Assembly: GCF_030345715.1 (NCBI RefSeq)
Contig: NZ_JAUASX010000027.1
Span: forward strand, 1-60,374
DNA length: 60,374 nucleotides
Direction: 5' to 3'
DNA from: Solimonas sp. SE-A11
Lineage (GTDB): Bacteria; Pseudomonadota; Gammaproteobacteria; Nevskiales; Nevskiaceae
Positions 7,059-58,866 of this stretch are shown here, one piece after another. The position numbers and the translations under genes were made by a program. Below the pieces are notes generated by a model, which was not told the DNA's origin, made no database searches, and was given only the letters and a program-made list of their open reading frames with translations. Within the stretch, counting starts at the first letter, position 1; each line of letters starts with the position of its first letter.

Positions 7059-9126
<2,068 letters not shown>

Positions 9127-9146
9127 AACCCATCAAGACCAAAGCC

Positions 9147-10490
9147 ATGACTGCCCAGCCGCCCGCCACGCTGCCGTCTCCTTCCGAACTCGCCGACCGT
9201 GTGCAGAAGGTGCTGGAGCGCGCCCGCGCCCTGGGTGCCACCTCGGCCGAGGCCAGCCTGTCGGCCAGCCGCGGCTACTCGCTGTCGGTGCGCAAGAGCG
9301 AGGTCGAGAGCCTGGAGTTCCAGCAGGACCGCGATCTCGGCGTGACCGTCTACTTCGGCCAGCGCAAGGGCAACGCCAGCACCGGCGACTTTTCCGACCG
9401 CGGCATCGCCGACGCCGTGCGCGCCGCCTGCGACATCGCCCAGGCCACCGGCGAGGACCCCTGCAACGGCCTGGCGGACCCCGCGCGCATGGCGCGCGAG
9501 TTTCCCGAACTGGACCTGGACCATCCCTGGGACCTGTCGCCGGAACAGGGCATCGAGCTGGCCAAGGCCTGCGAGGCCGCCGCCTTCGCCGCCGACGCCC
9601 GCATCACGCAGAGCGAGGGCGCCAGCGTCTCCAGTCATCGCGGCGTGTCGGTCTACGCCAACAGCCACGGCTTCATCGGCCACCGCCACGGCTCGCAGCA
9701 CAGCATCAGTTGTGCCGTGGTGGCGGGCGAGGACGAGGAGATGCAGCGCGACTACTGGTACTCCGGCGCCCGCAGCCCGGCCGACCTGCTCTCCGCCGAG
9801 GCCATCGGCCGCCGCGCCGGCGAGCGTGCCGCGGCCCGCGTGGGCTCGCGCAAGCTCACCACCCGCCAGGCCCCGGTGCTGTTCCCGCCGGAACTGGCGC
9901 GCGGCCTCTGGGGCCACTTCATTGGTGCCATCTCGGGAGGCTCGCTGTATCGCAAGGCCAGCTTCCTGCTCGACAAGCTCGGCCAGCCGGTGTTCTCGCC
10001 GCTGGTGCGCCTGGAGCAGCAGCCCTTCCTGCCGCGCGGCTCCGCCAGCGCCGCCTGGGACAGCGAGGGCGTGGCCACGCAGGCCCGCGTGCTGGTGGAT
10101 GACGGCGTGCTGCAGGGCTGGCTGCTGGGCAGCTACTCTGCGCGCAAGCTGGGCCTGCAGAGCACCGGCAACGCCGGTGGCGTCTACAACCTGATCGTGC
10201 GTCCCGGAACCCAGGATTTCCAGGCGCTGGTGCGCCAGATGCACGAGGGCCTGATCGTCACAGAACTGCTGGGCCACGGCGTCAACGGCGTGACCGGCGA
10301 CTACTCGCGCGGTGCCGCCGGCTTCTGGGTGGAGAACGGCGAGATCGCGTACCCGGTGCAGGAGCTGACCATCGCCGGCAACCTGCTGGAGATGTACCGC
10401 GACATCGCCGCCCTGGGCAACGACGTGGACCTGCTGGCCGGCACGCGCAGCGGCTCGGTGCTGCTCAGCAAGATGACCATCGCCGCCTGA
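9147..10490 (+). CDS. pmbA: Metalloprotease PmbA/TldE
   Basis: TldE (PmbA) partners TldD in a cytosolic metalloprotease that degrades unfolded peptides and, in enterobacteria, trims microcin B17 and CcdA. The product is 447 residues, the normal length. It shows the N-terminal segment SSA/SAEASLS..., the DLGVTVYFGQRKGNASTGD strand, and the C-terminal STGNAGGVYNL and GHGVNGVTGDYSRGAAGFW blocks typical of TldD/PmbA proteins. PmbA proteins lack the HExxxH zinc motif of TldD and none is seen here; the tldD partner is not in the window. The ATG at 9147 is the first family-consistent start after the OsmC gene. Confidence 0.95.
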   Translation: MTAQPPATLPSPSELADRVQKVLERARALGATSAEASLSASRGYSLSVRKSEVESLEFQQDRDLGVTVYFGQRKGNASTGDFSDRGIADAVRAACDIAQATGEDPCNGLADPARMAREFPELDLDHPWDLSPEQGIELAKACEAAAFAADARITQSEGASVSSHRGVSVYANSHGFIGHRHGSQHSISCAVVAGEDEEMQRDYWYSGARSPADLLSAEAIGRRAGERAAARVGSRKLTTRQAPVLFPPELARGLWGHFIGAISGGSLYRKASFLLDKLGQPVFSPLVRLEQQPFLPRGSASAAWDSEGVATQARVLVDDGVLQGWLLGSYSARKLGLQSTGNAGGVYNLIVRPGTQDFQALVRQMHEGLIVTELLGHGVNGVTGDYSRGAAGFWVENGEIAYPVQELTIAGNLLEMYRDIAALGNDVDLLAGTRSGSVLLSKMTIAA

Positions 10491-10497
10491 TGAGATA

Positions 10498-10528
10498 CAG
10501 CGGCGGCGCTTTTGCGCCGCCGGCTGTA
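10498..10528 (+). terminator. hairpin after pmbA
   Basis: CGGCGGCGC and GCGCCGCCG pair around TTTT just after the pmbA stop. There is no U-run, so termination is plausible but not certain. Confidence 0.45.
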
Positions 10529-10584
10529 GCTGCCGCGGGCACGCATGTGCCCGTATGCTGGGCCTGATCCTCACAGGACCCGCC

Positions 10585-11403
10585 ATGGCCCACACGATCC
10601 CCTTGTACCAACTCGACGTCTTTGCCCCGCGCTTGTTCGCTGGCAACCCGGCGGCCGTGTGCCCGCTGCAGGCCTGGCTGCCGGATGCGCTGATGCAGCG
10701 CATCGCCGCCGAGAACAACCTGGCCGAGACGGCCTTCTTCGCGCCCGACGAGACCGGCGAGGCGGACTTCCTGCTGCGCTGGTTCACGCCCATGGTGGAG
10801 GTGGACCTCTGTGGCCACGCCACGCTGGCCAGCGGCCACGTGCTGCTGGAGCTGCTGGGCTGGCAGGAGCCGCGCGTGCGCTTCCGCACCCTGCACGCCG
10901 GCGTGCTGCAGGTGGAGCAGGGCGAGGGCGGCCTGTGGCTGGACCTGCCGGCGCGGCCCGCCGTAGCCTTGGCGGAAATCCCCGCCGGCCTGCCGCAGGC
11001 GTTGGGTGCGCAGCCGGTGAAGGTCCTGGAGTACGGCGGCATCTGGCTGGTGGTCTACGATTCCGCCCGCACCATCGAGGGCCTGCCCGTGGACTTCGCC
11101 GCACTGCGGCGCCTGCCGGCCCGCGCGGTCTGCGTCACCGCGCCCGGGCGGCGCAACAGCGAGGACTTCGTCTCGCGCTTCTTCGCGCCCAACATGGGCA
11201 TCGACGAGGACCCGGCGACGGGCTCGGCGCATTGCCTGCTGATGCCGTACTGGGTGCAGCGCATCGGCCGGGCTCAACTTGCGGCGGCGCAGTTGTCGAA
11301 GCGTGGGGCGGTGTTGAGTTGCCGGCTGGAAGGCGACCGCGTGTGGATGACGGGGCCGGTGCATCTGTACTTGCGCGGCGAGATTGCGGGCTTGCCCGGC
11401 TAG
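10585..11403 (+). CDS. PhzF family isomerase
   Basis: A 272-residue member of the PhzF/diaminopimelate-epimerase fold. It has LFAGNPAAVCPL near the N-terminus, the conserved catalytic glutamate in ENNLAETAFF, the CGHATLASGHVL loop, and DPATGSAHC near the C-terminus. PhzF itself isomerises a phenazine precursor, but most genomic homologues have no known substrate and no other phenazine genes are present. The ATG at 10585 starts MAHTIPLYQLDVF, the usual family start; an upstream in-frame ATG at 10555 would add ten residues without family support. Confidence 0.9.
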   Translation: MAHTIPLYQLDVFAPRLFAGNPAAVCPLQAWLPDALMQRIAAENNLAETAFFAPDETGEADFLLRWFTPMVEVDLCGHATLASGHVLLELLGWQEPRVRFRTLHAGVLQVEQGEGGLWLDLPARPAVALAEIPAGLPQALGAQPVKVLEYGGIWLVVYDSARTIEGLPVDFAALRRLPARAVCVTAPGRRNSEDFVSRFFAPNMGIDEDPATGSAHCLLMPYWVQRIGRAQLAAAQLSKRGAVLSCRLEGDRVWMTGPVHLYLRGEIAGLPG

Positions 11404-27447: not shown

Positions 27448-28080
27448 TCAGGCGTTCTGCAGGCCGAGCTGGCGGGCCAGGAAGTCGATCATCACGTCGG
27501 CCGCGGCCTGTTCGTAGTCGGGCGTGATGCGGCGGTGCGCGATGTAGGAATGGCGGAAGCAGGTAGTGGCCACGTCCACCGCCAGCGTCGCCACGTCCAC
27601 CGGTTCGGCCGGTACCACCATGCCGCGCATCTGCAGCAGCTGCCGCGCCAGCCCGCCGAGATGGCGCACGGTCAGCTCGTAGCTGCGGTAGCTCTCGTCG
27701 GTCACCGCGCCGCCCAGGGCCAGCATCATCCCGGTGGGGTGCTCGTTGTGGAAGGCCGCGGCGGCATGGACGATCGCGCGCACCACGTCCTGCCACTCGC
27801 GCTTGGCGAGTTGTGCCGCGTCCGCCACCAGTGTCTGCTCCAGGCCCGCAAAATGGCGGCGCACCAGTTCGTTCAGCACCGCGTAGGGCGTGGGGAAGAA
27901 CTTGTAGATGCTGGCGCGGGTATAGCCCAGGCGCGCCGCCACGGCGGGAATCGAGAAGCCCGACAGGCCTTCTTCGGCCAGCAGGGCCTGCGTCTCCTGC
28001 AGTACCAGCTCGAATCGGTCGATGGCTCGCTGCTGCTGGGGCAGGCGGGCGAGGGCGCGCTGGTCTACGGCGATGTTCAT
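27448..28080 (-). CDS. TetR family transcriptional regulator
   Basis: The 210-residue protein has an N-terminal helix-turn-helix (about 25-75; GFSIPAVAARLGYTRASIYK followed by FFPTPYAVLNELVRRHF) and a helical ligand-binding domain. A perfect inverted repeat, AAGTTAC-N4-GTAACTT, lies 25 bases upstream of its ATG, which is the usual place for a TetR auto-operator. The same motif occurs in front of the divergent AraC-type gene and the cytochrome gene, so this repressor probably controls the whole block up to the DUF1329 gene. The ligand is unknown. Confidence 0.93.
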   Translation of the reverse strand: MNIAVDQRALARLPQQQRAIDRFELVLQETQALLAEEGLSGFSIPAVAARLGYTRASIYKFFPTPYAVLNELVRRHFAGLEQTLVADAAQLAKREWQDVVRAIVHAAAAFHNEHPTGMMLALGGAVTDESYRSYELTVRHLGGLARQLLQMRGMVVPAEPVDVATLAVDVATTCFRHSYIAHRRITPDYEQAAADVMIDFLARQLGLQNA

Positions 28081-28104
28081 GCAAAACAGGATACCCGCTC
28101 GGAG

Positions 28105-28122
28105 AAGTTACAGCAGTAACTT
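28105..28122. promoter_or_regulatory. TetR operator, copy 1 (perfect)
   Basis: AAGTTACAGCAGTAACTT has perfect 7-base arms and lies 25 bases upstream of the tetR start. Confidence 0.75.
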
Positions 28123-28210
28123 TCTGATGATGCTGGGAGTTCCGGCGCCTTTCATTGAGTCTGCATTCACCGGCTTGACGGCACTAAGCGACAAGAGTAG
28201 CTTTTTTATA

Positions 28211-28228
28211 AAGTTACATAAGTATCAA
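28211..28228. promoter_or_regulatory. TetR operator, copy 2 (imperfect)
   Basis: AAGTTACATAAGTATCAA keeps the left arm and spacer of the motif; the right arm is degenerate. It lies 23 bases upstream of the AraC-type start, following TTTTTTATA. Confidence 0.6.
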
Positions 28229-28250
28229 AATGCGATCTGGAGAAGGCAGC

Positions 28251-28727
28251 ATGGACACCCGAGTTTCCACCCCGCGGCTTCCCGGCCGGCGCCAAGCCTT
28301 GGCCGGTCTCGTAAGAAGCGAGTTGGAGGCTCGCCCCCACGGCTATCCCACGCTGCGGGAGATGGCGGAGGAGCTTTGCGTGTCCACGCGCACGCTCAAG
28401 CGCTACCTGCGCGACACCGGTGCCAGCTATCGGCAATTGCTGGACGGCGCACGCCAGCTGCATGCCACGGAACTGCTTGCGCGCCCCGGTCTCACCGTCG
28501 AGAAGATCGCCGAGCGGCTGGGTTACAGCAGCGGCGCCAACTTCTCGCGCGCCTTCCAGCGCTGGGTCGGCGTGGCGCCGGGGCAGTATCGCGGCCGCGT
28601 GGAGCTGGATGCCTCCGCGGCAGAAGACATGCCGCGCCCGGCGGCCATCCGGGAGCCTGCGGGATACGGCGCTCGCCTTGACAGTGCGAGGCCGCAAACG
28701 CTACTTTCGTTAAAGTTACATAAGTAA
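28251..28727 (+). CDS. Stand-alone AraC-type DNA-binding protein
   Basis: The 158-residue product is little more than an AraC/XylS double helix-turn-helix (about 22-108; YPTLREMAEELCVSTRTLKR, then LTVEKIAERLGYSSGANFSR with AFQRWVGVAPGQYR). It lacks the N-terminal sensor domain of full-length family members. The ATG at 28251 is preceded by AGAAGG; an ATG at 28230 is less likely. Its stop codon overlaps the third operator copy. It is divergent from tetR and runs into the cytochrome gene, so it may activate the block when TetR is released. Confidence 0.88.
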   Translation: MDTRVSTPRLPGRRQALAGLVRSELEARPHGYPTLREMAEELCVSTRTLKRYLRDTGASYRQLLDGARQLHATELLARPGLTVEKIAERLGYSSGANFSRAFQRWVGVAPGQYRGRVELDASAAEDMPRPAAIREPAGYGARLDSARPQTLLSLKLHK

Positions 28728-28730
28728 CTA
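28713..28730. promoter_or_regulatory. TetR operator, copy 3
   Basis: AAGTTACATAAGTAACTA has perfect 6-base arms (AGTTAC/GTAACT) and the same ATAA spacer as copy 2. It overlaps the AraC-type stop codon and lies 28 bases upstream of the cytochrome GTG. Confidence 0.75.
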
Positions 28731-28758
28731 TTTTGTCGGTGCGCTTCGGGAGAGGCTT

Positions 28759-31107
28759 GTGAAGAGATTCGGGTTTTCGGCGCCGCGCCTGGCGACGCTG
28801 CTGCTGTGTGCGTGGCTGGCGGCCTGTGCTCCCGGCCGCAGCGACGAGGTGTCCGGCGGCAGCGGCACGGCGCGCAGCATGGACGAGCACTTCAGCAATA
28901 ACGTGCAGCCCGCCCTCGGCTTCTGCCGCAGCTGCCACGTTCCCGGCGCACCGGGCGACGTGGAAGACGGCCGCGACTTCATGCTCTCCACCAACGAAGC
29001 GGAAGACCTGAAGAACCTGCGCGACAGCTGGGAGCGCCTGGGCGGCAACAACCCCACCTCGCGCATCCTGCTGATGGCCTCCGGGCAGGAGACGCCGCAT
29101 ACCGGCGGCGCCCAGTGGCCGGTCGGCAGCGTCGCGTACCGGAACATGGAGATCCTGCTCAAGTGCTTCGAGAACCCGGCCACCTGCAGTCTCGCCGGCG
29201 GCGTGGATCCGGGCGAACTGCTGCCGCTGCTGGGCAGCAAGCGCGGCGGCCACTACTGGTTCGACTACTGCGAGGGCAAGCCCGACTCGGAGCCGGTGCC
29301 GCAGGACCCGCGAGAGCTGGTGGTGGAGGGGGTCGACGAGGGCAAGGCGGTGCTGATGAACGCATACTGGAAGACCTGCCAGGAAGACAATCATCCGGGC
29401 ACCTGCGGCGAGCTGCGGGCCCGTTCCGAGCGCGGCTATCGCCTGGTCGCGGCCACCGGTGCAATCGGCGCCGGCACCATGTTCGGCGGCGATTCGCCAG
29501 ACCCGATGTTCGCGTTCCCCGCCCAGGACTACAACACGCTGTGGGATCGCGTCCTGCGCCTGCCCAGCCGCCCCGACAACTTCGACCAGCTGCTGGCCGA
29601 GCGCTGGGGCATGCCGCTGCCGGACAAGCCAAATCCCTATCCGCTGCCGGATGAAGATCCGAATGCCAGCAATGGCGGCAGCGGCCAGTTGCCGCTGGGC
29701 CTGACGCAGCTGCGCAACCCCGACGGCAGCTGGACCGGCAAGGTCGGCGTCACCTGCAACATCTGCCATGGCGGCGCGGTGGGCAAGGCGGTCGACGGCG
29801 AGGGCCTGGGCCCGATGTACGGCACCAACTCGATCTCCGATATCACGGTGATGTTCACCGACCTCGGCCGCATCGCGCCGCAGCAGTCGCTGCTGGCGGT
29901 GATCTCGCAGAACAAGGTGCGCGGCACCGGCAACATCACCAACTTCCAGCTGTTCGGCACGCTGACCTTGTTCGACGCGCTGATCCCCTACCTCACCGTG
30001 CAGACCCAGCCGTCCACCGGCACCGAGGATCCGCCGGTGTGGTGGAACGTCGGCAGCCGCCCGATGAAGTTCTTCGACGCGGGCATGCCCACCGACGCCA
30101 AGCGCATCGAGTTGTCCTTCCACTTCCCCAACGTCGCCTCGCCGAACAATGTCGAAGGCAAGCAGTGGATCAAGGACCATATGCAGGACGGCGACAGCTG
30201 GATGATGTCGATGCGTTCGCCGCGCTGGCCGGAGCCCAAGCTCGGCGAGATCGACACCGCGCTGGCGGAGCAGGGCGCGATCCTGTTCCACAGCAAGGAC
30301 CTGTGGGCCGCCAAGCTCAACAACCCGGTGCGTCGCCCCGAGGGCGGCAACGGCTCCTGCGCCAGCTGCCACGGCGCCTACTCACCGCGCTTCGTCCACG
30401 ATCCCGCGTTCCTGGCCACGCCGCTGCTGGAAGGCATCGCCGCCTACGTGACGCCGATCGACATCATCGGCACCGACACGCGCCGCCTCGACGGCCACAG
30501 CCAGGTGGTATCCAACTACGCGCGCCAGAACTGGTTCGCCTACAACGACGGTCCGAAGAACGATGCCGGCGTGCCCACCTGCGGCTCGCAGAACGACTCT
30601 GCCGTGCGCGGCGACCGCGAGCTCGGCTACCTCGCCCCGCCGCTGCACGGTGTCTGGGCCACGGCACCGTATTTCCACAACGGCGCCGTGCCCAATGTCT
30701 GGGAGGTGCTCAAGCCGGCGGACCGCAAGCCGATCTGGCGCCGCCTGTCGCGCCCGGCCATCGAGAACGGCATCGCCGGCTTCGACTACAGCCTGGAGAC
30801 CGGCTACAACGCCGTGGACATGGGCTGGAACTACGAGGCACTGACCTGCGGCACCGGCTCCATGCCCTTCATCGACTGCAACCCCAGCGGTGGCGCCACG
30901 GTGCAGGACCTGCTGGGCCTGGTTTGGGCCAATGGCGGCCTCGCCTGGAACCTGCTGAACCTGCCGATCTTCACCAACGGCCAGATCGAGGATCGCAAGG
31001 TCTACAACACCAACTACTACAGCCAGGACAACGGTGGCCACGAGTTCACCAGCGTGCTCACCGATCCCGAGCGCAAGGCCATCATCGAGTACCTGAAGAC
31101 GCTGTAG
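28759..31107 (+). CDS. Multiheme c-type cytochrome lipoprotein, MauG/RoxA-like
   Basis: The 782-residue product starts at GTG and has a lipoprotein signal peptide (LLLCAWLAAC, lipidated C23). Three CXXCH heme motifs are present: CRSCH at 56-60, CNICH at 333-337 and CASCH at 534-538. After the last comes GVWATAPYFHNGAVPNVWEV, the conserved block of diheme peroxidase-like enzymes (MauG, CcpA, rubber oxygenase RoxA). The length and the paired central and C-terminal hemes are closest in outline to RoxA-type dioxygenases (about 670-700 residues), with an additional N-terminal mono-heme segment. The protein is expected in the periplasm or on the outer membrane. It leads a row with DUF1302 and DUF1329 genes and has a TetR-type operator in its promoter. 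Substrate is unknown; a peroxidase or an oxygenase are both possible. Confidence 0.85.
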   Translation: MKRFGFSAPRLATLLLCAWLAACAPGRSDEVSGGSGTARSMDEHFSNNVQPALGFCRSCHVPGAPGDVEDGRDFMLSTNEAEDLKNLRDSWERLGGNNPTSRILLMASGQETPHTGGAQWPVGSVAYRNMEILLKCFENPATCSLAGGVDPGELLPLLGSKRGGHYWFDYCEGKPDSEPVPQDPRELVVEGVDEGKAVLMNAYWKTCQEDNHPGTCGELRARSERGYRLVAATGAIGAGTMFGGDSPDPMFAFPAQDYNTLWDRVLRLPSRPDNFDQLLAERWGMPLPDKPNPYPLPDEDPNASNGGSGQLPLGLTQLRNPDGSWTGKVGVTCNICHGGAVGKAVDGEGLGPMYGTNSISDITVMFTDLGRIAPQQSLLAVISQNKVRGTGNITNFQLFGTLTLFDALIPYLTVQTQPSTGTEDPPVWWNVGSRPMKFFDAGMPTDAKRIELSFHFPNVASPNNVEGKQWIKDHMQDGDSWMMSMRSPRWPEPKLGEIDTALAEQGAILFHSKDLWAAKLNNPVRRPEGGNGSCASCHGAYSPRFVHDPAFLATPLLEGIAAYVTPIDIIGTDTRRLDGHSQVVSNYARQNWFAYNDGPKNDAGVPTCGSQNDSAVRGDRELGYLAPPLHGVWATAPYFHNGAVPNVWEVLKPADRKPIWRRLSRPAIENGIAGFDYSLETGYNAVDMGWNYEALTCGTGSMPFIDCNPSGGATVQDLLGLVWANGGLAWNLLNLPIFTNGQIEDRKVYNTNYYSQDNGGHEFTSVLTDPERKAIIEYLKTL

Positions 31108-31123
31108 CGCTTCCGGGAATCTT

Positions 31124-31158
31124 GCCGGCCGCCCTGGGGCCATCGCAGGGCGGCCGGC
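31124..31158. other. long hairpin between the cytochrome and DUF1302 genes
   Basis: GCCGGCCGCCCTG and CAGGGCGGCCGGC are perfect 13-base arms around nine bases, 17 bases after the cytochrome stop. There is no T-run, so it may protect mRNA or terminate weakly. The 266-base gap to the next gene shows no other coding signal. Confidence 0.5.
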
Positions 31159-31373
31159 ACTTCTGACCTATGTCGGGTATGGCCCCGCTTGCATGGGGTG
31201 TCGCCGGCCGGCGGGATCGGCAAGCGCGACGGCGCCCGCCTGTGGTCACCAATCTCAACGCCTTGTCCGCAATTCTCATCCCCCCCGCAAAAGGTCGGGA
31301 GCATGCTCCGGGGAATGCCGGGCGCAGATTCGGCAGGCAACGATTACAACGAGATTCACGAGGGCCCCCTGCG

Positions 31374-33923
31374 ATGATGGAGAAGATCAAGCCCGCGGCT
31401 CGCGCCGCGGCGTTGCTGCTGTCGCTGTTCAGCCTGCCGGCCTGGTCGCTGAGCTTCGACCTGGACGACAACGGCGAGTGGAACGCCGTGCTCAACACCA
31501 CCATCACCGCGGGCGCCGCCTGGCGCATGCAGGATCGCGCCAGCGACCTGGTGGGCAAGTCCAACCTGGACCCGAACGTCTGCGGCCGTGCCGCCAACGG
31601 CAATGCGGCCTACCAGGGCTGCCAGGGCCTGTTCCGTACCCAGACCTATCCCGCCACCAAGCTGGCCAACTCGCCCGGCCAGTTCACGGTGAACGCCGAC
31701 GACGGCAACCTGAACTACGACAAGCACGACATCGTGCAGGCGCCGCTGAAGATCACCCAGGACCTCACGCTGACGCATGGCGACTTCGGCCTGTTCGTGA
31801 AGGGCCTTTACTTCTATGACTTCGTCAACAACGACTTCATGGAGAAGCACCCCAACCGCATCACGCCGGAGAACATGTATGACGTGGGCGTGGTGTCGCT
31901 GCCGGGCCGCGAGGTGATCCCGCTGCCGCTCGGCCTGCCCAACCTGGCGTTGACGCAGCGCAGCGATTCGGTGGCCTGCCCGCCCTCGCGCAACCCCGGC
32001 ATCGGCCCCTGCGGCCTGGTCTACGGCCCGGGCGGCGTGGTGCGCAGCAAGCGCAGCGACAGCGAAACCCTGCGCCAGATCGGCACCGACCTGCAGCTGC
32101 TCGACGCCTATGTCTACGGCAAGCTGCCGCTGTGGGGCGACAAGGACCTCACGGTGAAGCTCGGCCGCCAGACCGTGAACTGGGGCGAGTCCACGCTGCT
32201 GGTGTTCGGCTCCATCAACCAGGTCAACCCGGTCAACGCCAACAACTTCTACCGCACCGGCTTCCTGGTGGAGGAAGTGTTCACCCCGGTGGGCATGCTG
32301 TACGCGTCCATGGAGCCCTTCGACGGCGCCACGCTGGAAGCCTTCTACCAGTACGAGTGGGAGCCGCTGGAAGCCCCGGCGCCGGGCTCCTACTTCGCCT
32401 TCCTCGACGTGGGCAGCAACAACGCCATCGACAACGTCAACCTCAGCTTCGGCGGCGCCGCGGAAGACCCCAAAGGTGTCGGCCGCCTGATCGACAACCC
32501 GCTGTCGGGCATCACCAACACCTCGCTGACCGCGCAGCGCCTCAAGGACAAGGAGCCGGACGGCGGCGGCCAGTACGGCGTGGCGCTGAAGTACTACTCC
32601 GAGGACTTCAACGCTGGTACCGAGTTCGGCTTCTACTTCATGAACTATCACGCGCGTAATCCCTACGTCAGCGTGATCTCGGTGGACCAGGCCTGCTCCA
32701 AGAACGTGACCAGCACCGTTGGCTTCATCCTGGCCTGCCCGGACGTACCGCTGCTGCACTCGGTGCTGAAGCCCAACGACCCGCTCGGCGCCACCAGCAG
32801 CGCGGTGCCCTTCGACAGCCTCAAGATCCAGCTGGAATACCCGGAGGACATCAAGCTGTTCGGCGTGTCCTTCAACACGACGCTGGGAGATTTCTCGCTG
32901 CAGGGCGAGGTGGCCTACCGCCCCGACGAGCCGCTGCAGGTGGACCTGGAAGACCTGGTGTTCGCCGGCTTCGGCCCCACGCTGAGCAACTGCCACCTGG
33001 CGCCCGGCTGCGCCGGCAGCGGCAGCCTCACCGGCGCGGCGCTGGGCGTGCTCGGCCCGCAGCTCTCCGGCCTGGTGGACCAGCTGCTGAACGGCCTGGG
33101 GATCAACTTCCTCGGTGGCATCGGCGCCAATCCGGACGGCTCCGTGAGCCTCTATCCGGGCAGCGACTACGTGGTGGACGCCAACGGCACCCCCGGCTCC
33201 TACAGCGACACCTTCGACCTGATCATCGGCCACGTGCCGGGCTCGGGCCGCGCCTTCCCGTCGTTCGTGATTCCCTACCGCGGCGGCGTGGTCGGCACCA
33301 ATCCGGCCAACAGCTACATCCGCGGCTGGGAGGAGTTCGACACCTTCCAGTTCAACCTCGGCGCCACGCACGTGGCCGGCGCCACCGACAACCCCTTCGG
33401 CGCCGACCAGGTCATCACCCTGTTCGAGCTGGGCGCCACCTGGGTGCCGGGCCTGCCGGACCTGGACGAGCTGCAGCTGGAAGCCCCGGGCACCTACACC
33501 CATGCCAGCGCCGGCGCGGACGGCAGCGGTGCGGACCGCTCGCAGCAGGCCTGCTCCACCAACCCGGCCTGCTCCTACGGCCCGGACGGCCTGCGCTTCA
33601 ACCCGCACCAGCAGGAACTGGGCGGTTTCCCGGACAAGCTGTCCTGGGGCTACGTGATCATCAGCCAGATCAAGTATGAATCCGTGCTGCCGGGTATCTC
33701 GCTGATGCCGCAGCTGACCTGGAAGCACGACGTGCACGGCACCGCTCCGGGCCTGGCGACCAACTTCGTGTCCGGACGCAAGAATGGCGACATCGGCCTG
33801 GAAATCCGCTACAAGTCCAGCCTGGCGTTCAATCTCGGATACACCTGGTTCACGGGGGGCGGCTCCTACAACCTGTATCGCGACCGTGATGCCGCACGCG
33901 CCTTCGTACGACTGCAGTTCTGA
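31374..33923 (+). CDS. DUF1302 family outer-membrane protein
   Basis: The 849-residue product has a Sec signal peptide (about residues 1-24, AAALLLSLFSLPAWS) followed by DUF1302: LSFDLDDNGEWNAVLNTTIT, GRQTVNWGESTLLVFGSINQ, and a beta-rich C-terminus ending in RAFVRLQF with terminal phenylalanine, as in outer-membrane barrels. DUF1302 genes usually sit next to DUF1329 genes, often with RND-type transporters and genes for hydrophobic-compound metabolism; the molecular role is not settled. The member here is longer than the common 550-650 residues, with insertions containing paired cysteines (ACPPSRNPGIGPCG, CHLAPGCAG). Start at 31374 or 31377. Confidence 0.9.
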   Translation: MMEKIKPAARAAALLLSLFSLPAWSLSFDLDDNGEWNAVLNTTITAGAAWRMQDRASDLVGKSNLDPNVCGRAANGNAAYQGCQGLFRTQTYPATKLANSPGQFTVNADDGNLNYDKHDIVQAPLKITQDLTLTHGDFGLFVKGLYFYDFVNNDFMEKHPNRITPENMYDVGVVSLPGREVIPLPLGLPNLALTQRSDSVACPPSRNPGIGPCGLVYGPGGVVRSKRSDSETLRQIGTDLQLLDAYVYGKLPLWGDKDLTVKLGRQTVNWGESTLLVFGSINQVNPVNANNFYRTGFLVEEVFTPVGMLYASMEPFDGATLEAFYQYEWEPLEAPAPGSYFAFLDVGSNNAIDNVNLSFGGAAEDPKGVGRLIDNPLSGITNTSLTAQRLKDKEPDGGGQYGVALKYYSEDFNAGTEFGFYFMNYHARNPYVSVISVDQACSKNVTSTVGFILACPDVPLLHSVLKPNDPLGATSSAVPFDSLKIQLEYPEDIKLFGVSFNTTLGDFSLQGEVAYRPDEPLQVDLEDLVFAGFGPTLSNCHLAPGCAGSGSLTGAALGVLGPQLSGLVDQLLNGLGINFLGGIGANPDGSVSLYPGSDYVVDANGTPGSYSDTFDLIIGHVPGSGRAFPSFVIPYRGGVVGTNPANSYIRGWEEFDTFQFNLGATHVAGATDNPFGADQVITLFELGATWVPGLPDLDELQLEAPGTYTHASAGADGSGADRSQQACSTNPACSYGPDGLRFNPHQQELGGFPDKLSWGYVIISQIKYESVLPGISLMPQLTWKHDVHGTAPGLATNFVSGRKNGDIGLEIRYKSSLAFNLGYTWFTGGGSYNLYRDRDAARAFVRLQF

Positions 33924-33954
33924 CGCACCCATACCTAGAATGAGGAGACGGAAG

Positions 33955-35307
33955 ATGCACAGCAGGATCACGATCACGGCGGCGTTGGCGGCCGCGCTGT
34001 TCGCCGGCGCGGCCGGAGCCAAGGTAAGCCCCGACGAAGCGGCCAAGCTGGGCCAGGAACTGACGCCGGTGGGTGCCGAGAAGGTCGGCAACAAGGAAGG
34101 CACCATTCCCGAGTGGACCCCCGGTAAGCAGCGCGGCGAGCTCAAGGGCGAGTACCCCAACAACCCCGAGACCGACAACGACAAGCCGCTGTACACCATC
34201 ACTAAGGCCAACATCGGCCAGTATGTCGGCAAGCTGAGCGAAGGCCACAAGAAGCTGCTCAACACCTACGACAGCTACAAGATGAACGTCTACTCGAGCA
34301 AGCGCGTCGTCGCCTGGCCGGACGTCATCTACCAGGCCACCGCCGCCAACGCCACCACCTGCGAAATGGTGGGCACCGACACGCCGAACAACTGCAAGCT
34401 GGGCTTCCCCTTCCCGATTCCCAAGAGCGGCGCCGAGCCGATCTGGAACCACAAGCTGAAGTTCCGGGGCGAGGCGGCCACGCGCTACAACAACCAGTTC
34501 ATCGTGCAGCCCAACGGCGCCTACCAGCAGACCAAGATCGTGGAGGACGTGACCTTCGGCTACGGCTCCATCAAGAAGTCGGTGCCGCTGACCACCACCT
34601 CCGGCGAGTTCCTGAAGTATCTGTCCAAGACGGTGGAGCCGCCGCGCATGGCCGGCACCTACATCCTGGTGCACGAGAAGGCCGGCACCGGCGCCGCCGG
34701 CCGCGCCGCCTGGCTCTACTCGCCGGGCCTCAAGCGCATCCGCCGTGCCCCCACGGTCTGCTGCGACAACCCGTACGAAGGCACCGACGGCCACCAGTTC
34801 TACGACCAGGTGGACATGTTCAACGGCGTGCTCGAGCGCTACAACTGGAAGCTGGTGGGCAAGAAGGAGGTGTACATCCCGTACAACTCCAACAAGATCG
34901 CCGGCAACACCATCAAGTACAAGGACCTGATCCGTCCCAAGCACATCAACCCCGAGCTGCCGCGCTACGAGCTGCACCGCGTCTGGGTGGTCGAGGCCAC
35001 GCTGAAGGAAGGCACCAGCCACACCTTCAAGAAGCGCCGCTTCTACATCGACGAGGACAGCTGGAACATCGCGATGGTTGACGACTACGACAACCGCGAC
35101 CAGCTCTACCAGTTCCAGGAAGGCCACGTCGGCTTTGCCGCCAACGTGATGGCCAGCTTCACGATCCCGGAAGTGATCTACCACTTCACCTCCGGCCGCT
35201 ACTTCATCACCGCCGCCTTCAACGAAGACAAGCCCTACGACCTCACCGTGAGCTTCGGCGACGACTACTTCAGTGCCAGCTCGGTACAGAAGATGACGAC
35301 GAAGTAG
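33955..35307 (+). CDS. DUF1329 family periplasmic protein
   Basis: The 450-residue product has a signal peptide (MHSRITITAALAAALFAGAA then GA, cleaved near residue 22) and a DUF1329 domain through its whole length (GKLSEGHKKLLNTYDSYKMN, FPFPIPKSGAEPIWNH, LYSPGLKRIRRAPTVCCDNP, DMFNGVLERYNWKLVGKKE). DUF1329 is related to the LolA/LolB lipoprotein-carrier fold, which fits a role in carrying a lipophilic molecule. A clear AGGAGACGGAAG ribosome site precedes the ATG. It lies 31 bases after the DUF1302 gene and is its standard partner. Confidence 0.93.
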   Translation: MHSRITITAALAAALFAGAAGAKVSPDEAAKLGQELTPVGAEKVGNKEGTIPEWTPGKQRGELKGEYPNNPETDNDKPLYTITKANIGQYVGKLSEGHKKLLNTYDSYKMNVYSSKRVVAWPDVIYQATAANATTCEMVGTDTPNNCKLGFPFPIPKSGAEPIWNHKLKFRGEAATRYNNQFIVQPNGAYQQTKIVEDVTFGYGSIKKSVPLTTTSGEFLKYLSKTVEPPRMAGTYILVHEKAGTGAAGRAAWLYSPGLKRIRRAPTVCCDNPYEGTDGHQFYDQVDMFNGVLERYNWKLVGKKEVYIPYNSNKIAGNTIKYKDLIRPKHINPELPRYELHRVWVVEATLKEGTSHTFKKRRFYIDEDSWNIAMVDDYDNRDQLYQFQEGHVGFAANVMASFTIPEVIYHFTSGRYFITAAFNEDKPYDLTVSFGDDYFSASSVQKMTTK

Positions 35308-35514: not shown

Positions 35515-35549
35515 ACGGAGCATGCCGGGGGGCTTGCTCCGTTTTTTTA
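35515..35549 (+). terminator. intrinsic terminator
   Basis: ACGGAGCA and TGCTCCGT pair around a 12-base G-rich loop and are followed by seven T. It is the clearest terminator after the DUF1329 gene, about 210 bases downstream of its stop. Confidence 0.7.
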
Positions 35550-36767: not shown

Positions 36768-39700
36768 CTATCTCAAATTAGGTGGTATCCAGTCTTTTCC
36801 AAGTTCTTTGGCTCCTTTGGACCCATTGCAACCCTGACAGGAATTCGCAGCATTGTCATCCGATGTTGGACCGCCAAGTGACCAGGGAAGTACATGATCC
36901 GTTTGTGAGGAGTTTGGTTTTCCAGGCTCAGTGGTGGTCTTTACGCCACAGTAGACGCAGGTTGGGTCGCCATCAGCATCACGTGAACGGTCTCGGGCGC
37001 GTTCCCGTTGTCCTTTGTCAAACCGACGCTTTTTGTCTTTTTGCACATCTGATGCGGAGGGTTTATCCCCGTCATTGCTCGCCTCATTCATCATCGAGCA
37101 GTTGCCGTAATTCAGCGAGTCCGGCCTTTCACAGGCTGGCGCAGCGATGGGAGTTGGATAAAGTAAACACATCAACCCAATCGTTACCGGGTGCGGAAGA
37201 ATCCATGGCAGACGTGCTATAGCTGGGAATCCGGGCATTGGGAACACGCGAGGCGCTGCGACGGTTTCCAAGCCTAGCGGGTCGATATAGCTCAGCGGAT
37301 TGGCTTCGCCATAGAGATAGGTATTGATCCCCCCCGCCAACCCAATCGGATCACTCTGCACATACCTGCCGAGCGCCGGGTTGTAATCCCGATGCCAATT
37401 CTGGAACAGCCCACTCTCTGCATCAAACACCTGCCCCGGATGCCGCAGGTTGTAGGTGAAGGGCGTACCGGTGGAGAGCGGATCCTCATCCGGACTCGAT
37501 GATCCAAACGTAATCGTGTCCCACACCCACACCGGATCGCCGGCTTGGTTGTTGATCTGCCGGGGCGTATTCAGATGATCCGCATGCACGTAGTAGGTAT
37601 CGGAGCCCTTCACCACCGCGATGGGCGTATCGCCCATCCAGACCGTCTCCTGGATGGCATTGCCCGTGGCCGCGTCGTACTCACCCACCAGGTGCCCCGC
37701 CTCGTCATAGGCGTAGACCGTGCCGGTTCCTGACGCCGTCTTGCTCACCCGCTGTCCCAGGCCGTTGTAGACGTAGGCGGTGGCATCCACGCTGGTCAGC
37801 CGTCCGGTCTTGTCGTAGCCATAGACATGGCTACCGTCGGCGGTGAGGTTGCCATTGGCGTCATAGCTGAAGCTCTGCGTGACCGTGCCATCGGTCAGGC
37901 TGTCCAGCCGGTTGCTGGTCAGGCTGGTCGTGTAATCGGTGGTGCCGGCCGTACCGGACTGCTGGGTCCGGTTGCCGTTGGCGTCATAGCCATAGCCGAT
38001 GCTGAAGCTGGCGCCCAGATAGCTGGTCAGCCGGTCCAGGCTGTCGTAGCCGTAGGTCTTGCTACCGATCAGCTGGGACAGGTTGTCGTGAGAGAGGCCG
38101 GTGATGCGGTCCGCCGTGTCGTAGCCGACGGTCCCCAGGCTGTGCGCCGTCAGGCGCCCGGACAGATCAAAGCTCTTCTGCACTGCCTGGCCGTTGGCGA
38201 AGTCCCACTGGCTCACCCCACCGAAAGGTTCTTCGAGGAAGTTGCTAGCCACGGGGTTGCCGTCCAGCGTCATGCCGGTGAGGCGGTTGAGGTTCCAGGC
38301 ATAGCCAACGACCTTGCCGGAGGGCAGGGTCTGAGTGGCCAGGCGGCCCTGCGCGTCGTAGCTGTAGCTGGTGACCAGCGTACGGCTGCCCACGACCTGC
38401 GTCTGGCTGGTGACGCGGCCAAGCGCGTCATGGACCCAGGCCAAGCTCTGGCCGGTCTGCGAGATGCCGGTGAGCCGCCCTTTGCCATAGGTGCCTGCGT
38501 CGTAACTGTAGTTGATGGTGGGGCCGCCACTGCCGCTGTACACCGACTTCGTGAGGCGGTTCAGGGCATCGTAGGTATAGGTGACGACCTGGCCCTTGGC
38601 ATCGGTGCGGGTCTTGATGTTGCCGGCGCTGTCGTAGGTGGCGTTGCTGGTGCCGGTGTCCGGGCTTTGCAACTGGGTGACATCGCCGAACAGGTTGCGT
38701 GTGTAGCTGGTAACCAGGCTGCGTGGATCGGTGACGCTGGTCAGTTCATCGCGCGGGTTGTAGCCGTATTGCGTGACGCCATAGGCCGGGTCCGTGACGC
38801 TCATAAGGCGGCCGAGGGCGTCATAGTCGCTAGTGGTGGTCCGGCTGCCATCGACGGTGGCGCTGGTGAGGTTGCCCTCGCCGTCATAGCCATAGACCTC
38901 GCTCTGGCCATTGGCGCCCTGGAGTTCCTTCAACCGGCTGAGTCCGTCGTAGACCCGGGCCTGGCTGCGACGCAGGGTGTTGCCGTGGTCGTAGACCTGC
39001 TCGGCGGTGCGGTTGCCAGCCCAGTCCAGCGTGTATTCGATACGGTTGCCGTCCAGGTCGGCGATGCCGGTCAGGCGATGCGCGGCATCGTAGCTGTAGG
39101 CCAGCCAGGCGCCGTCGGGCGTGGTGACCTTCTTGAGTTGGCCCGCCTTGTCGTATTCGAAGCTGGTGGTTTCTCCGGCCGTGCTGCGGCTGGTGAGGCG
39201 CTGGCGAGGGTCGTAGGTCAGCAGGGTTTCTACCCCATTGGGGTCCAGGATGCGCAGCGGATTGCCGTGCGGGTCATGGTGCGTGATCTGGGTGACGTGG
39301 CCCAGGGGATTGGTAACGGTACTGACATTGCCCTGGCTGTCATAGGTGAAGCTGGTGATGTCGGTCGTGTCGGTGCGCGGGCCGTTGATGCTCGCCAGGT
39401 AGTTCTGGGCGTTGTAACTGTGAATCGTGCTGCGCGTGCCCCCACTGACGCTGATGCTATCGACGACCAATTGGCCCTTGCCGTTGTAGCCGAAGGTCTG
39501 CGTACGATCGGAGGCAGTGATGGCTGAGGGCTTGGTCCAGATGGAATTCCAACGTGTAGTGATGGTTCGAGCCAACGCGGTGCCTGCCGCTTCGGTGCGG
39601 CTCAGCTCCTGGCCAGTAATACCGTCATAGATGTATTCAGTTGTGGAGCCACGCTTGTCCACCTTGCTGGCAGGCCAGCCGTTGCTGTCGTAGGTGTAAG

Positions 39701-41225
39701 TTTCAGTGCTGTTCGTCAGATCGCAATTCGGGCAGGCGCTATAAGTCACGGAGGTGATGCGTGTGCCTTTGCTGCTGGCACCGTGGCTGATCAGGCGCTC
39801 GGTGTAGAGGGAGGCATCGTAGTATTGACGGACGCGCGTGGTATTGCCGTCCAGGTATTCGAAGACATGACGTCCCGCGCCCTCGGCGTGTTCGGAGAGG
39901 ATGGCACGGCCCTGAGCGTCATAAGCATAGGTGGCATAGCGGTCGCCGTTCTCGTCGATGATGCCGGTGAGAGCTCCGGGGTAGACCAAATCTTCGTAGA
40001 GATAATGACGGACCGGATTGTCGGCGAGGGTCCAGGGAGTGTCATCCGGATACGTGACCGAAATCAGGCGTCCCAGGCCGTCCCAGTCGTAGGTGAAGGG
40101 CTGGCCGGCTGCATCGATAATCTGACGCACATGACCTGCCGCATCAAGTTCCAGGACATAGCTGCGGCCGACGGCGGAGGTAAGGGTTTCCGTGGCGCCA
40201 CCATAGGCGTTGCCGCTGGCATAGGTGATGATTGCGCGCCGACCATCGGCTTCGACCCGTGCGCTCAGGCGATTCTGGAGGTCGAATTCGTAGCTGCGGC
40301 CAGAGGGCTCCTTGAAGACCGGCAGTCCCCCGGCATCCACTAGACGGCCATCGTTGTAGCGGTTGCTTTCCCAAGCGGTCTCGCCGACGCGACGGAAGAA
40401 AACGCGACGCTGCTTTCCATGCGTGAAGACTGCGATCTGGTAGCTGTGTTCTTGACGGATGCTCAAGCTGGGACGGTTGCTGTGCCACTTCATCTCATTA
40501 GGTGTGGGAGTACTCCACATCCGGCCGATGTAGTTCCGGCCGAACTGGAAGTCGGTGCTGGCATAGTCCTGCTCCTGCTGGGATTTCAAGCCATTGGTGC
40601 AGTCCACCGGGTTGGAGTACTCGCGCTGGGCGCCGGGAACGTTCCCGGAGGCGCAGGAGGATTGAGGCTCGACTATCTCGGGCTCGGATATGGGGCATTC
40701 GGGTGTGGAAGGAATGTCATCCAGGGAGAGGTGAAAATGATCGTTGACCCATGAAGGCGATGGTGCTCCTCCGGCGCCTGGGCAAGGTGGCGGCGGCGTC
40801 GGGCCGCAGACCGGTGTCGCCCGGATGCTTGAGTATCCGAGGGTGGTAACCACCCCGTACTGGAATTGAAATGATGCACTCCAGCGCTCGTAGTCTTGGG
40901 TGAATTCGGTCCGCCCGGTCGTGGCGTTGACGAGGGTTGCCGTGGGTGTCCCCTGTGGGGTCTCGATCGTGAGGTTCCATGGGGTATTCGAGTATGTTTT
41001 GCCTATAAAGCATTCCGTGACGTCATCGACTACCGCGCCGGGTGGCGCGCAATGCGGGGCAGGCTCACCATTGTGGAAGTTCTTTTGCATATTTCCCCAG
41101 CCGCGCATCACCTGACCTGCGGGGCAGGAAAACGCTTGAGCATTCAGCGCTAGGAGGGTCAAAAGAATTCCTATCAGGAACGGGCCCTTGCCTCTTTCTC
41201 CGCTCGCGTCATGGGGATTTGCCAT
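36768..41225 (-). CDS. RHS-repeat polymorphic toxin with C-terminal HNH-type nuclease
   Basis: The product is 1485 residues from the ATG at 41225 (MANPHDASGERGKGPFLIGI), giving a Sec-type signal segment; the frame is open 16 codons further to 41273. The middle is a long series of YD/RHS repeats (many YDxxGRLxxx units such as YDALGRLMSVTD, YDKTGRLTSVDA), closed by GRYVQSDPIGLAGGINTYLY and the DPLGL cleavage-associated motif. The last 166 residues are a variable tip: a hydrophobic stretch (ARLPWILPHPVTIGLMCLLY), a charged linker and a zinc-finger HNH fold with CVYCG, TDHVLPWSLGG, NAANSCQGCNGSKGAKEL. This predicts a DNA-cutting toxin delivered to other cells. No PAAR, VgrG or T6SS gene is near. 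Confidence 0.92.
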   Translation of the reverse strand: MANPHDASGERGKGPFLIGILLTLLALNAQAFSCPAGQVMRGWGNMQKNFHNGEPAPHCAPPGAVVDDVTECFIGKTYSNTPWNLTIETPQGTPTATLVNATTGRTEFTQDYERWSASFQFQYGVVTTLGYSSIRATPVCGPTPPPPCPGAGGAPSPSWVNDHFHLSLDDIPSTPECPISEPEIVEPQSSCASGNVPGAQREYSNPVDCTNGLKSQQEQDYASTDFQFGRNYIGRMWSTPTPNEMKWHSNRPSLSIRQEHSYQIAVFTHGKQRRVFFRRVGETAWESNRYNDGRLVDAGGLPVFKEPSGRSYEFDLQNRLSARVEADGRRAIITYASGNAYGGATETLTSAVGRSYVLELDAAGHVRQIIDAAGQPFTYDWDGLGRLISVTYPDDTPWTLADNPVRHYLYEDLVYPGALTGIIDENGDRYATYAYDAQGRAILSEHAEGAGRHVFEYLDGNTTRVRQYYDASLYTERLISHGASSKGTRITSVTYSACPNCDLTNSTETYTYDSNGWPASKVDKRGSTTEYIYDGITGQELSRTEAAGTALARTITTRWNSIWTKPSAITASDRTQTFGYNGKGQLVVDSISVSGGTRSTIHSYNAQNYLASINGPRTDTTDITSFTYDSQGNVSTVTNPLGHVTQITHHDPHGNPLRILDPNGVETLLTYDPRQRLTSRSTAGETTSFEYDKAGQLKKVTTPDGAWLAYSYDAAHRLTGIADLDGNRIEYTLDWAGNRTAEQVYDHGNTLRRSQARVYDGLSRLKELQGANGQSEVYGYDGEGNLTSATVDGSRTTTSDYDALGRLMSVTDPAYGVTQYGYNPRDELTSVTDPRSLVTSYTRNLFGDVTQLQSPDTGTSNATYDSAGNIKTRTDAKGQVVTYTYDALNRLTKSVYSGSGGPTINYSYDAGTYGKGRLTGISQTGQSLAWVHDALGRVTSQTQVVGSRTLVTSYSYDAQGRLATQTLPSGKVVGYAWNLNRLTGMTLDGNPVASNFLEEPFGGVSQWDFANGQAVQKSFDLSGRLTAHSLGTVGYDTADRITGLSHDNLSQLIGSKTYGYDSLDRLTSYLGASFSIGYGYDANGNRTQQSGTAGTTDYTTSLTSNRLDSLTDGTVTQSFSYDANGNLTADGSHVYGYDKTGRLTSVDATAYVYNGLGQRVSKTASGTGTVYAYDEAGHLVGEYDAATGNAIQETVWMGDTPIAVVKGSDTYYVHADHLNTPRQINNQAGDPVWVWDTITFGSSSPDEDPLSTGTPFTYNLRHPGQVFDAESGLFQNWHRDYNPALGRYVQSDPIGLAGGINTYLYGEANPLSYIDPLGLETVAAPRVFPMPGFPAIARLPWILPHPVTIGLMCLLYPTPIAAPACERPDSLNYGNCSMMNEASNDGDKPSASDVQKDKKRRFDKGQRERARDRSRDADGDPTCVYCGVKTTTEPGKPNSSQTDHVLPWSLGGPTSDDNAANSCQGCNGSKGAKELGKDWIPPNLR

Positions 41226-41478
41226 GAACAGCTTCAGAAAAATGCGGCAGACGGTCTGAGTGCACGTGCTCATGGCGATGTCCAGATTGCAGGAAGCGCC
41301 AAGCTAGAGATTTGCGTCAGCTGGTGCAATCTGACGGCTGAATCAGATGTGGCCTACTGAATCCCTCCCCCTTCGATGCCCGCTGGACCCCGCCGGGCGC
41401 GACAGGCACTGGGCGCACGCCCATCCTGCCAGACAAGCTAAAATCCAACCTCGACCCGTATATCCCGGTACCCCCACC

Positions 41479-58775: not shown

Positions 58776-58866
58776 GGAGAGGTGGCAGAGTGGTTTAATG
58801 TACCTGACTCGAAATCAGGCGTACGTTCATAGCGTACCGGGGGTTCGAATCCCTCCCTCTCCGCCA
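58776..58866 (+). tRNA. tRNA-Ser (anticodon CGA)
   Basis: A 91-base class II tRNA: acceptor GGAGAGG pairs with CCTCTCC, anticodon loop CTCGAAA gives anticodon CGA (58810-58812), a long variable arm follows (GTACGTTCATAGCGTAC), T-arm GGTTCGAATCC, and an encoded CCA. An integrase gene starts 98 bases downstream, which marks the tRNA 3' end as an island attachment site. Confidence 0.97.

Follow-up and report, generated by a model that had tools for sequence, protein, structure and literature searches.

We analyzed a 60,374-nt stretch of Solimonas sp. SE-A11 (the window; contig NZ_JAUASX010000027.1 of assembly GCF_030345715.1, i.e., contig C20 of a 4.94-Mb genome, G000) in which five genes at positions 27448 to 35307 combine a Rox-type (rubber oxygenase) three-haem lipoprotein with two regulators and a DUF1302/DUF1329 pair. 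An initial annotation had proposed a candidate new system that joins the cytochrome to the DUF1302/DUF1329 pair. NCBIfam models, an alignment with PDB 4b2n, and the description of Rox proteins in PMC10837239 identify the cytochrome as a Rox homologue rather than a new kind, and across the order it is a DUF3570/ApbE flavinylation relay that tracks Rox. The importer pair is best seen as having been recruited beside the Solimonas Rox, with the electron supply encoded elsewhere. We regard as evenly balanced the proposition that the five genes form a TetR-controlled catabolic outfit, in which an outer-membrane, Rox-type, C=C-cleaving dioxygenase would use its third haem as an electron inlet and the DUF1302 and DUF1329 proteins would import the products.

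The TetR-family repressor gene (27448..28080, - strand; PF00440, TetR_N, 32.2 bits) is divergent from the rest. On the + strand follow a minimal AraC-type regulator with an HTH domain only (28230..28727; HTH_18, 78.9 bits); the oxygenase gene (28759..31107; GTG start; 782 aa; RoxA-like_Cyt-c, 73 bits), whose product has a RoxB-like core in a RoxC build; a DUF1302 protein that is probably an outer-membrane barrel (31374..33923; PF06980, 582.6 bits, residues 7-849); and a LolA-like DUF1329 protein (33955..35307; PF07044, 409.7 bits; LolA_like, 38.2 bits, cut-off 30) that starts 31 bp after DUF1302. All five genes of the initial annotation were present at these positions, and Pfam agreed for each.

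The earlier description of a 782-residue lipoprotein with three CXXCH motifs held: a lipobox (LAAC, residues 20-23; predicted lipidated residue, Cys 23) and the motifs CRSCH (56-60), CNICH (333-337), and CASCH (534-538) were located, together with PYFHNG at 637; the pI of the mature protein is 5.0. The NCBIfam RoxB model (NF050034) matched with 903.8 bits (904.4 in a second run), passing the cut-off of 900 by 4 bits. The RoxC model (NF051462) scored 832.5 bits, below its cut-off of 900, though over the full length (10-782 on 7-812), and the RoxA model gave 429 bits. RoxA (4b2n) aligned over residues 151-782 (372 bits) rather than over the C-terminal block to which the resemblance had been limited. 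The two CXXCH motifs, the MauG-type His, and the axial His 641 of the Rox core (dihaem peroxidase fold) are all present in the window protein. These core residues were kept in 93 of the 94 Rox sequences that we aligned with RoxA (90 open reading frames [ORFs] of ≥600 aa from the 61 loci defined below and 4 from short loci), the exception being a truncated sequence without the last His. On these sequence grounds, the window cytochrome belongs to the Rox proteins as a three-haem lipoprotein. It is 91% identical to the cytochrome of S. fluminis (G050) and 96% identical to that of BWSM_106 (G052), both of the same genus. A structure prediction of Rox from 10 sequences had a mean predicted local distance difference test score (pLDDT) of 39, and the model was not used. 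Elsewhere in the same genome, a 104-aa Rox remnant lies at G000:C12:270708-270998 (L070).

In its predicted build, the window protein is a RoxC, i.e., a member of the published third Rox group. The traits of RoxB (secreted, two haems, no lipid anchor) fail for a protein with a lipobox and three CXXCH motifs, whereas those of RoxC (lipoprotein, third N-terminal haem with a second His) fit its lipobox, CRSCH 56-60, and H114. With the RoxC group it shares the lipoprotein build, an acidic pI, a Phe replacing W302, and the third N-terminal CXXCH with a second His ligand that many members have (PMC10837239); it differs in its score under the RoxC cut-off and in branching with RoxB-like clades. RoxC has more sequences than any other Rox group (243 of 458), and its function is called unknown; two RoxCs, from Fontimonas thermophila and Oceanococcus atlanticus, were expressed and showed no rubber-cleaving activity, a result given as unpublished (PMC10837239). 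These tested proteins have CFQCH and an Ala at the RoxA F317 position, in contrast to the CNICH and Phe of the window protein. Compared with RoxB/LatA (Steroidobacter cummioxidans 35Y and Rhizobacter gummiphilus NS21), the window core passes the RoxB cut-off and keeps the Phe at F317; RoxB35Y, however, is secreted, carries two haems, and has Val at W302 (PMC10837239, Table 1), whereas the window protein is lipid-anchored, carries three haems, and has Phe there. RoxA shares with the window protein the two core haems, the axial and MauG-type His, and the F301 and F317 equivalents, but it has neither the anchor nor the third haem.

Eight positions of the catalytic-haem pocket were compared (RoxA numbering 251, 252, 254, 255, 301, 302, 316, and 317). 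The pocket reads AILIFWAF in RoxA and ITNFFFSF in the window protein, and either ITNFFFSF or ITNFFYSF in 10 of 10 members of the window clade (clade support, 1.00). The CFQCH Rox proteins (i.e., the kind tested) have AVAFFFAA or nearly so, and two clear RoxBs have ASDIFVVF (L084; 1123.8 bits) and ASAVFVVF (L124; 1089.8 bits). The window pocket is unlike RoxA, W302 included, and unlike each clear RoxB at six of the eight positions, and its Phe at both W302 and F317 does not match the RoxB35Y pattern (Val/Phe). All 10 clade members, the window protein included, have Phe at the F317 position, and the F317 loss of the RoxC type is absent. Because this Phe, which is essential in RoxA (PMC4496055), is kept, the negative results on the two RoxCs do not cover the window clade. 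In the Rox tree, RoxB-like proteins stood amid several three-haem clades, with a deep order that was weakly supported in places. A divergent Rox clade was seen in L089, L096, L126, and L127 (five sequences; pockets ADEILWYF, ADEILWFP, and ADDILWYF), to which the long Rox ORFs of L230 and L231 may also belong; in L127, the Rox gene of this clade adjoins full-length AraC-type genes.

Rox proteins (E ≤ 1e-40) were found in 30 of the 85 genomes of the order, some in multiple copies (14 matches in G051, with two genes counted twice). Gene contexts were compared over 61 Rox loci (i.e., the window and L068-L127), with L036, L037, and L038 omitted as duplicates of L072, L071, and L083. Outside this set stand short contigs or later finds (G024:C255 and C178; G026:C207, C147, C274, C1, and C48; G062:C216, C158, and C256; G014:C200; G067:C83; G002:C154; G003:C1:711618; and G051:C1:1604617 and C1:5326672). 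With the RoxB model, Rox was found in 3 of 369 genomes of the class (G000 included) and in 1 of 398 of the phylum (G000 itself), and these searches are therefore too thin for context work; the search in the family of G121 covered one genome.

The commonest other partner of Rox was DUF3570, which was present at 16 of the 61 loci and at 0 of 33 random regions. Beside Rox it often occurs with a redoxin, a DUF4266 lipoprotein ending in CGCN, and ApbE, the last lying within 5 kb of Rox at six loci. In L116, for example, a TetR gene (4810), the redoxin (5448), DUF4266 (5945), DUF3570 (6315), ApbE (7499), and a RoxC (8467-10926) follow one another on one strand; a pattern search saw no DUF4266-like ORF in L114 or L212. 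ApbE was shown to flavinylate a DUF3570 protein at [ST]GA[ST] motifs, and gene sets with DUF3570, ApbE, a thioredoxin-like protein, and DUF4266 have been found, with their function called uncertain (PMC8238504). At least one such motif was present in 37 of the 39 DUF3570 proteins that we gathered; those without it were L202 (long kind, from a Rox-less genome) and L213 (a 133-residue fragment). The module of the published flavinylation clusters, SGAS motifs included, is the same as that found in whole or in part beside Rox in the relatives and on contig C14 in G000, but the main text of PMC8238504 mentions neither "rubber" nor "peroxidase"; the link to Rox comes from the present analysis. Among the matches listed in open-access literature (PubMed Central, with subscription papers outside the scope), none joins Rox with DUF1302/DUF1329 or DUF3570/ApbE, and the available parts of PMC5979037 and PMC6311187 name no such partner.

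In G000, the module (ApbE, DUF4266, DUF3570, and redoxin) lies on C14 (L191), where no Rox gene was found; because it sits on another contig, the relay is invisible from the window sequence. Some DUF3570 occurred in 45 of the 85 genomes. The short kind (about 34 hits, all fetched) was separated from the long kind, represented in the tree by only three sequences (L199, L201, and L202), by score and profile range. It comprised one supported clade (eight sequences; support, 1.00) from both Rox and Rox-less genomes and 28 further sequences, all from Rox genomes, which do not form a single clade under every rooting. As classified, this remainder (the Rox kind) was present in 26 of the 30 Rox genomes and in 0 of the 55 others. 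The match held within genera: in g10, Rox was found in 5 of 11 genomes and the same 5 had the Rox-kind DUF3570; g2, g4, g8, and g11 matched too; and in g6 it was present in three of four Rox genomes and in 0 of 14 others. The within-genus figure of 4.4e-8 assumes independence, and the counts leave out partial DUF3570 hits in G004, G015, G016, G021, G028, and G031 (Rox-less) and in G053, G054, and G057.

The third-haem domain was found fused to Rox in some species and free in others. Every one of the 69 three-haem Rox proteins has its His pair (H60 and H114), and the domain, mostly within Rox itself, occurred in 28 of the 85 genomes, all of which were Rox genomes. In G064 and G065, a Rox near the module has lost the domain, and a separate lipoprotein bearing the domain and one more CXXCH adjoins DUF3570. 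The haem lipoprotein, DUF3570, ApbE, redoxin, and Rox stand in this order on one strand in L123 (G065), and L114 (G064) repeats this arrangement with redoxin and Rox 1.4 kb apart. Such a distribution, with the domain part of the enzyme in certain species and standing alone next to the flavin genes elsewhere, would be expected of an electron carrier between the relay and Rox. G026 has two-haem Rox proteins in L106, L125, and L053 and one three-haem Rox in L126. The same genome encodes a free, 438-aa, lipoprotein-like protein with three CXXCH domains of the third-haem type (L228:8627-9940, +), possibly a haem wire; no Rox or DUF3570 was found in the 12.6 kb around it.

The TetR control proposed in the initial annotation agrees with a conserved putative operator, GTTAC-N4-GTAAC, that stands before three genes of the locus and recurs in three other Solimonas genomes. 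O1 (GTTACAGCAGTAAC; 28107..28120), before tetR, and O4 (GTTACATAAGTAAC; 28715..28728), before the oxygenase gene, are exact palindromes that occupy the same positions in L037/L071 and L038/L083. O3 (GTTACATAAGTATC; 28213..28226), before mini-AraC, has one mismatch, and the site matching it in L038 stands before a further rox gene. O2 (GCGACAAGAGTAGC; 28188..28201), as read from the sequence, is a decayed operator whose S. fluminis counterpart (L037:9438) is an exact palindrome with equal spacing to O3; in L076, a single exact palindrome carrying the O2 spacer lies between rox and tetR. With up to one mismatch allowed, the 60-kb window contained three matches, none of them outside this locus, versus 0.26 expected, and a count of three was reached in 0 of 100 shuffles. 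Elsewhere among the scanned Rox loci, the operator was confined to the orthologous cluster (four matches in S. fluminis, three in BWSM_106, and one in G051), and single one-mismatch palindromes in L080, L097, and L098 seem coincidental. At 31 of the 61 loci, Rox has a TetR gene within 1.2 kb, and the mini-AraC family is shared by the seven tight Solimonas Rox clusters and L081.

That the five genes form one unit stood in part: the genes are present and the operator is conserved, but a single message for the oxygenase and DUF1302 is only a possibility, as the 266-bp gap between them holds a strong hairpin and no operator. This RNA hairpin (31123..31159, +; 14-bp stem) begins 15 nt past the oxygenase stop and has no T tract; the folding energy computed for 31100-31180 is -42.8 kcal/mol (z, -2.75). 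We infer co-transcription of the pair. The unit likely ends at a terminator-like hairpin followed by a T run (35526..35541, +), a call that is weak because the window has 10 such sites versus 4.8 expected.

The five-gene order, the conservation of which was to be checked, was seen only in Solimonas. Cluster A (TetR, one to three rox genes, mini-AraC, DUF1302, and DUF1329) was present in four of four Solimonas genomes, the window's included, and cluster B, with the same gene kinds, in three of the four (L073, L078, and L084, the last without a visible DUF1329); cluster B was not found in the window's genome. The tight DUF1302/DUF1329 order beside Rox thus occurred at 7 of the 61 loci, with DUF1329 in 6 of the 7, and was not seen outside Solimonas among these loci. 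By script, DUF1302 lay within 5 kb of Rox at 14 loci, or at 15 with L098, whose Rox ends 2.9 kb from a DUF1302 counted under L099. By the initial annotation's own criterion, the proposal would be refuted if the cytochrome gene stood without DUF1302/DUF1329 in most relatives, and indeed no DUF1302 was found within 5 kb at 47 loci by script, or at 46 of the 61 once L098 was added; 14 of the 47 (L098 among them), or 13 of the 46, have <5 kb of sequence on one side. On the 14 or 15 loci, an obligate five-gene system was rejected. In L125 (G026), DUF1302 is <1 kb from Rox but upstream of a divergent TetR. Relative to BWSM_106 (L038/L083; three rox and two tetR genes), the window segment 28230-31374 is without two rox genes and one tetR, and by such comparisons Rox arrays appear to grow and shrink between close species.

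Catabolic genes were frequent near Rox, with at least one of six families within 5 kb at 27 of the 61 loci and at 3 of the 33 random regions (what remained of 40 draws after the removal of 5 for overlap with Rox loci and of 2 for repeating or overlapping another draw). Singly, only flavin monooxygenases (14 versus 1; P = 0.009) and AMP ligases (11 versus 1; P = 0.03) passed 0.05; the counts were 3/0 for GMC oxidoreductases, 2/0 for thiolases, 4/0 for ECH, and 9/4 for SDR (P = 0.49). DUF1302 was near Rox at 14 loci versus 1 control (P = 0.009), or at 6 of 39 versus 1 of 33 when single-Rox loci alone were considered (P = 0.08). Since the Rox loci are related, the Fisher values are only a guide, and because the family models were built from Rox-side genes, the counts favor the Rox side. 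In G001 and G002 (L099 and L108), Rox and DUF1302 are 3 to 4.4 kb apart, and genes for DUF1329, acyl-CoA dehydrogenases, and AMP ligases are nearby; in L099, the genes for DUF1302, DUF1329, acyl-CoA dehydrogenase, and AMP ligase adjoin Rox-Rox-TetR, and L108 has the same gene classes. A GXWXG/DUF4334 protein (L084:2021-2461, -) and an alpha/beta hydrolase adjoin Rox cluster B, and members of the DUF4334 group occur within 5 kb of 3 of the 61 Rox loci.

DUF1302 and DUF1329 are required for Tween 20 use in Pseudomonas putida and were proposed to act in transport, DUF1302 being described as a barrel (PMC10866462), in agreement with the earlier suggestion that the pair moves substrate or product. 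PP_0765/PP_0766 of P. putida belong to the same two families, have consecutive locus numbers, and were put forward as a pair acting in transport; the available part of that account makes no mention of a Rox protein (PMC10866462). The window DUF1302, which had been called enlarged, is of ordinary size for G000, in which 7 of 20 DUF1302 open frames exceed 850 aa and 19 DUF1329 genes also occur. A DUF1302 structure model from three sequences (mean pLDDT, 25) was unusable and was not used. In a tree of 20 chosen DUF1302 proteins, the Rox-linked ones (clusters A and B, G001, and G002) grouped with one that is not Rox-linked; the tree left out close copies from G040, G047, and G049, and the grouping is given without support values. 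A Rox-specific DUF1302 was rejected on account of these close copies, which lie in genomes without Rox.

The redox attack on a hydrophobic compound at the outer membrane that the initial annotation had envisaged fits a predicted Rox-type lipoprotein. In the mechanism that we propose, a Rox-type dioxygenase with its core haems, MauG-type His, and F317 Phe kept would be held on the outer membrane by its lipid anchor and would attack an unsaturated hydrophobic compound, probably an isoprenoid or a long-chain olefin or lipid. The N-terminal haem with its two conserved His would most likely be the electron inlet that holds or returns the catalytic haem to Fe(II) for O2 binding, a direction of electron flow that we infer, and the likely donor in G000 would be the unlinked redoxin-DUF4266-DUF3570-ApbE module. 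Cleavage products would pass through the DUF1302 barrel and DUF1329 to beta-oxidation, and the substrate or a product would free TetR from the operators before tetR, mini-AraC, and the oxygenase gene. More broadly, and with slightly less confidence than an even balance would allow, we suggest that the three-haem Rox proteins of the order are reductant-dependent outer-membrane oxygenases, in which electrons would run from flavinylated DUF3570, DUF4266, and redoxin to the N-terminal and then the catalytic haem; that purified RoxCs would be inactive without this supply; and that tandem copies with diverging pockets have extended the enzyme to many C=C substrates. RoxC function and the task of the DUF3570 relay, two open questions, are thereby joined by co-occurrence, operon structure, and the split third-haem domain. 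If the relay reading is true, the missing electron supply may explain why purified relatives looked dead, and the window Rox, which keeps the Phe essential in RoxA and has its own operator, regulator, and probable importer, would be the better enzyme to try.

Several observations weigh against this mechanism. The two expressed RoxCs cleaved no rubber, and RoxB35Y, although active, is likewise isolated in the Fe(III)/Fe(III) state (PMC10837239), and therefore the oxidation state alone cannot explain the inactivity of RoxC. W302, the inter-haem bridge of RoxA, is replaced by Phe in the window protein. In Solimonas, the DUF3570 module adjoins neither Rox cluster A nor cluster B; the Rox-kind DUF3570 is missing in four Rox genomes (G014, which is 84% complete, G060, G061, and G067); and G067 has a two-haem Rox and no third-haem domain. 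On the importer side, G040, G047, and G049, three genomes without a match to Rox, encode DUF1302 proteins that share 68 to 69% identity with that of the window; DUF1329 by itself shows no enrichment around Rox (7 of 61 versus 1 of 33; P = 0.16); and the enrichment of acyl-CoA dehydrogenases misses 0.05 (9 of 61 versus 1 of 33; P = 0.07).

Some of these points bear on the alternative that DUF1302/DUF1329 form a separate transcription unit for another substrate and stand beside the oxygenase by chance or convenience. The gap with its hairpin and without a TetR operator, the close DUF1302 proteins in Rox-less genomes, the abundance of DUF1302 (20 copies in G000), and the lack of firm enrichment at single-Rox loci are what such a unit would show, but the identical order in seven tight clusters, both A and B, and the grouping of the Rox-linked DUF1302 proteins, though one non-Rox-linked protein joins them, make it rather unlikely, if a serious contender. 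The protein could also be a plain rubber oxygenase of the RoxB type that cuts natural rubber or its oligomers without outside electrons, the third haem being a spare or a stabilizer. Its RoxB score above the curated cut-off and the kept F317 equivalent suit this explanation, as does cluster B of G052 (L084), where a clear RoxB shares one array with mini-AraC and DUF1302. It is nevertheless improbable given the 4-bit margin, a pocket unlike the clear RoxBs at six of eight positions, and the lipid anchor, third haem, and pI of 5.0 as in RoxC; rubber degradation by S. fluminis is described as not demonstrated (PMC10837239).

To an oxidation of unsaturated lipids of the cell or its surroundings, yielding oxylipins rather than food, as by the oleate 10S-dioxygenase of Pseudomonas aeruginosa (PA2077), we assign the same low probability as to rubber cleavage. 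PA2077 and PA2078, which are RoxA relatives, oxygenate oleate in the periplasm (PMC4496055), and unsaturated fatty acids of the cell wall have been suggested in the review of RoxC (PMC10837239); however, the acyl-CoA ligases, acyl-CoA dehydrogenases, flavin monooxygenases, and GMC oxidoreductases beside several relatives point to breakdown, and the dozen or more G051 Rox genes with differing pockets suit diverse substrates. Least probable is a peroxidase-type electron sink, in which a relay-fed Rox would reduce H2O2 or organic peroxides at the outer membrane with DUF1302/DUF1329 as chance neighbors. The RoxA core is a dihaem peroxidase core (PMC10837239) and the relay contains a redoxin, but the distal Phe at the F317 and F301 positions, TetR and the catabolic neighbors, and a DUF1302 that follows Rox with its order unchanged in two distinct Solimonas clusters argue against such a sink. 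A reading of the MauG-like core as a protein-modifying enzyme was dropped, as the pocket and the neighbors appear to point otherwise.

Beyond the five genes, positions 36768-41273 (-) encode a 1501-aa RHS-repeat-like protein with a short end region whose CXXC and H motifs, judged by eye, we take to resemble an HNH nuclease. A tRNA-Ser(CGA) gene lies at 58776-58866 (+), directly followed by a long ORF (58965-60308, +) with a lower third-position GC (0.66), perhaps an integrase at an island edge.

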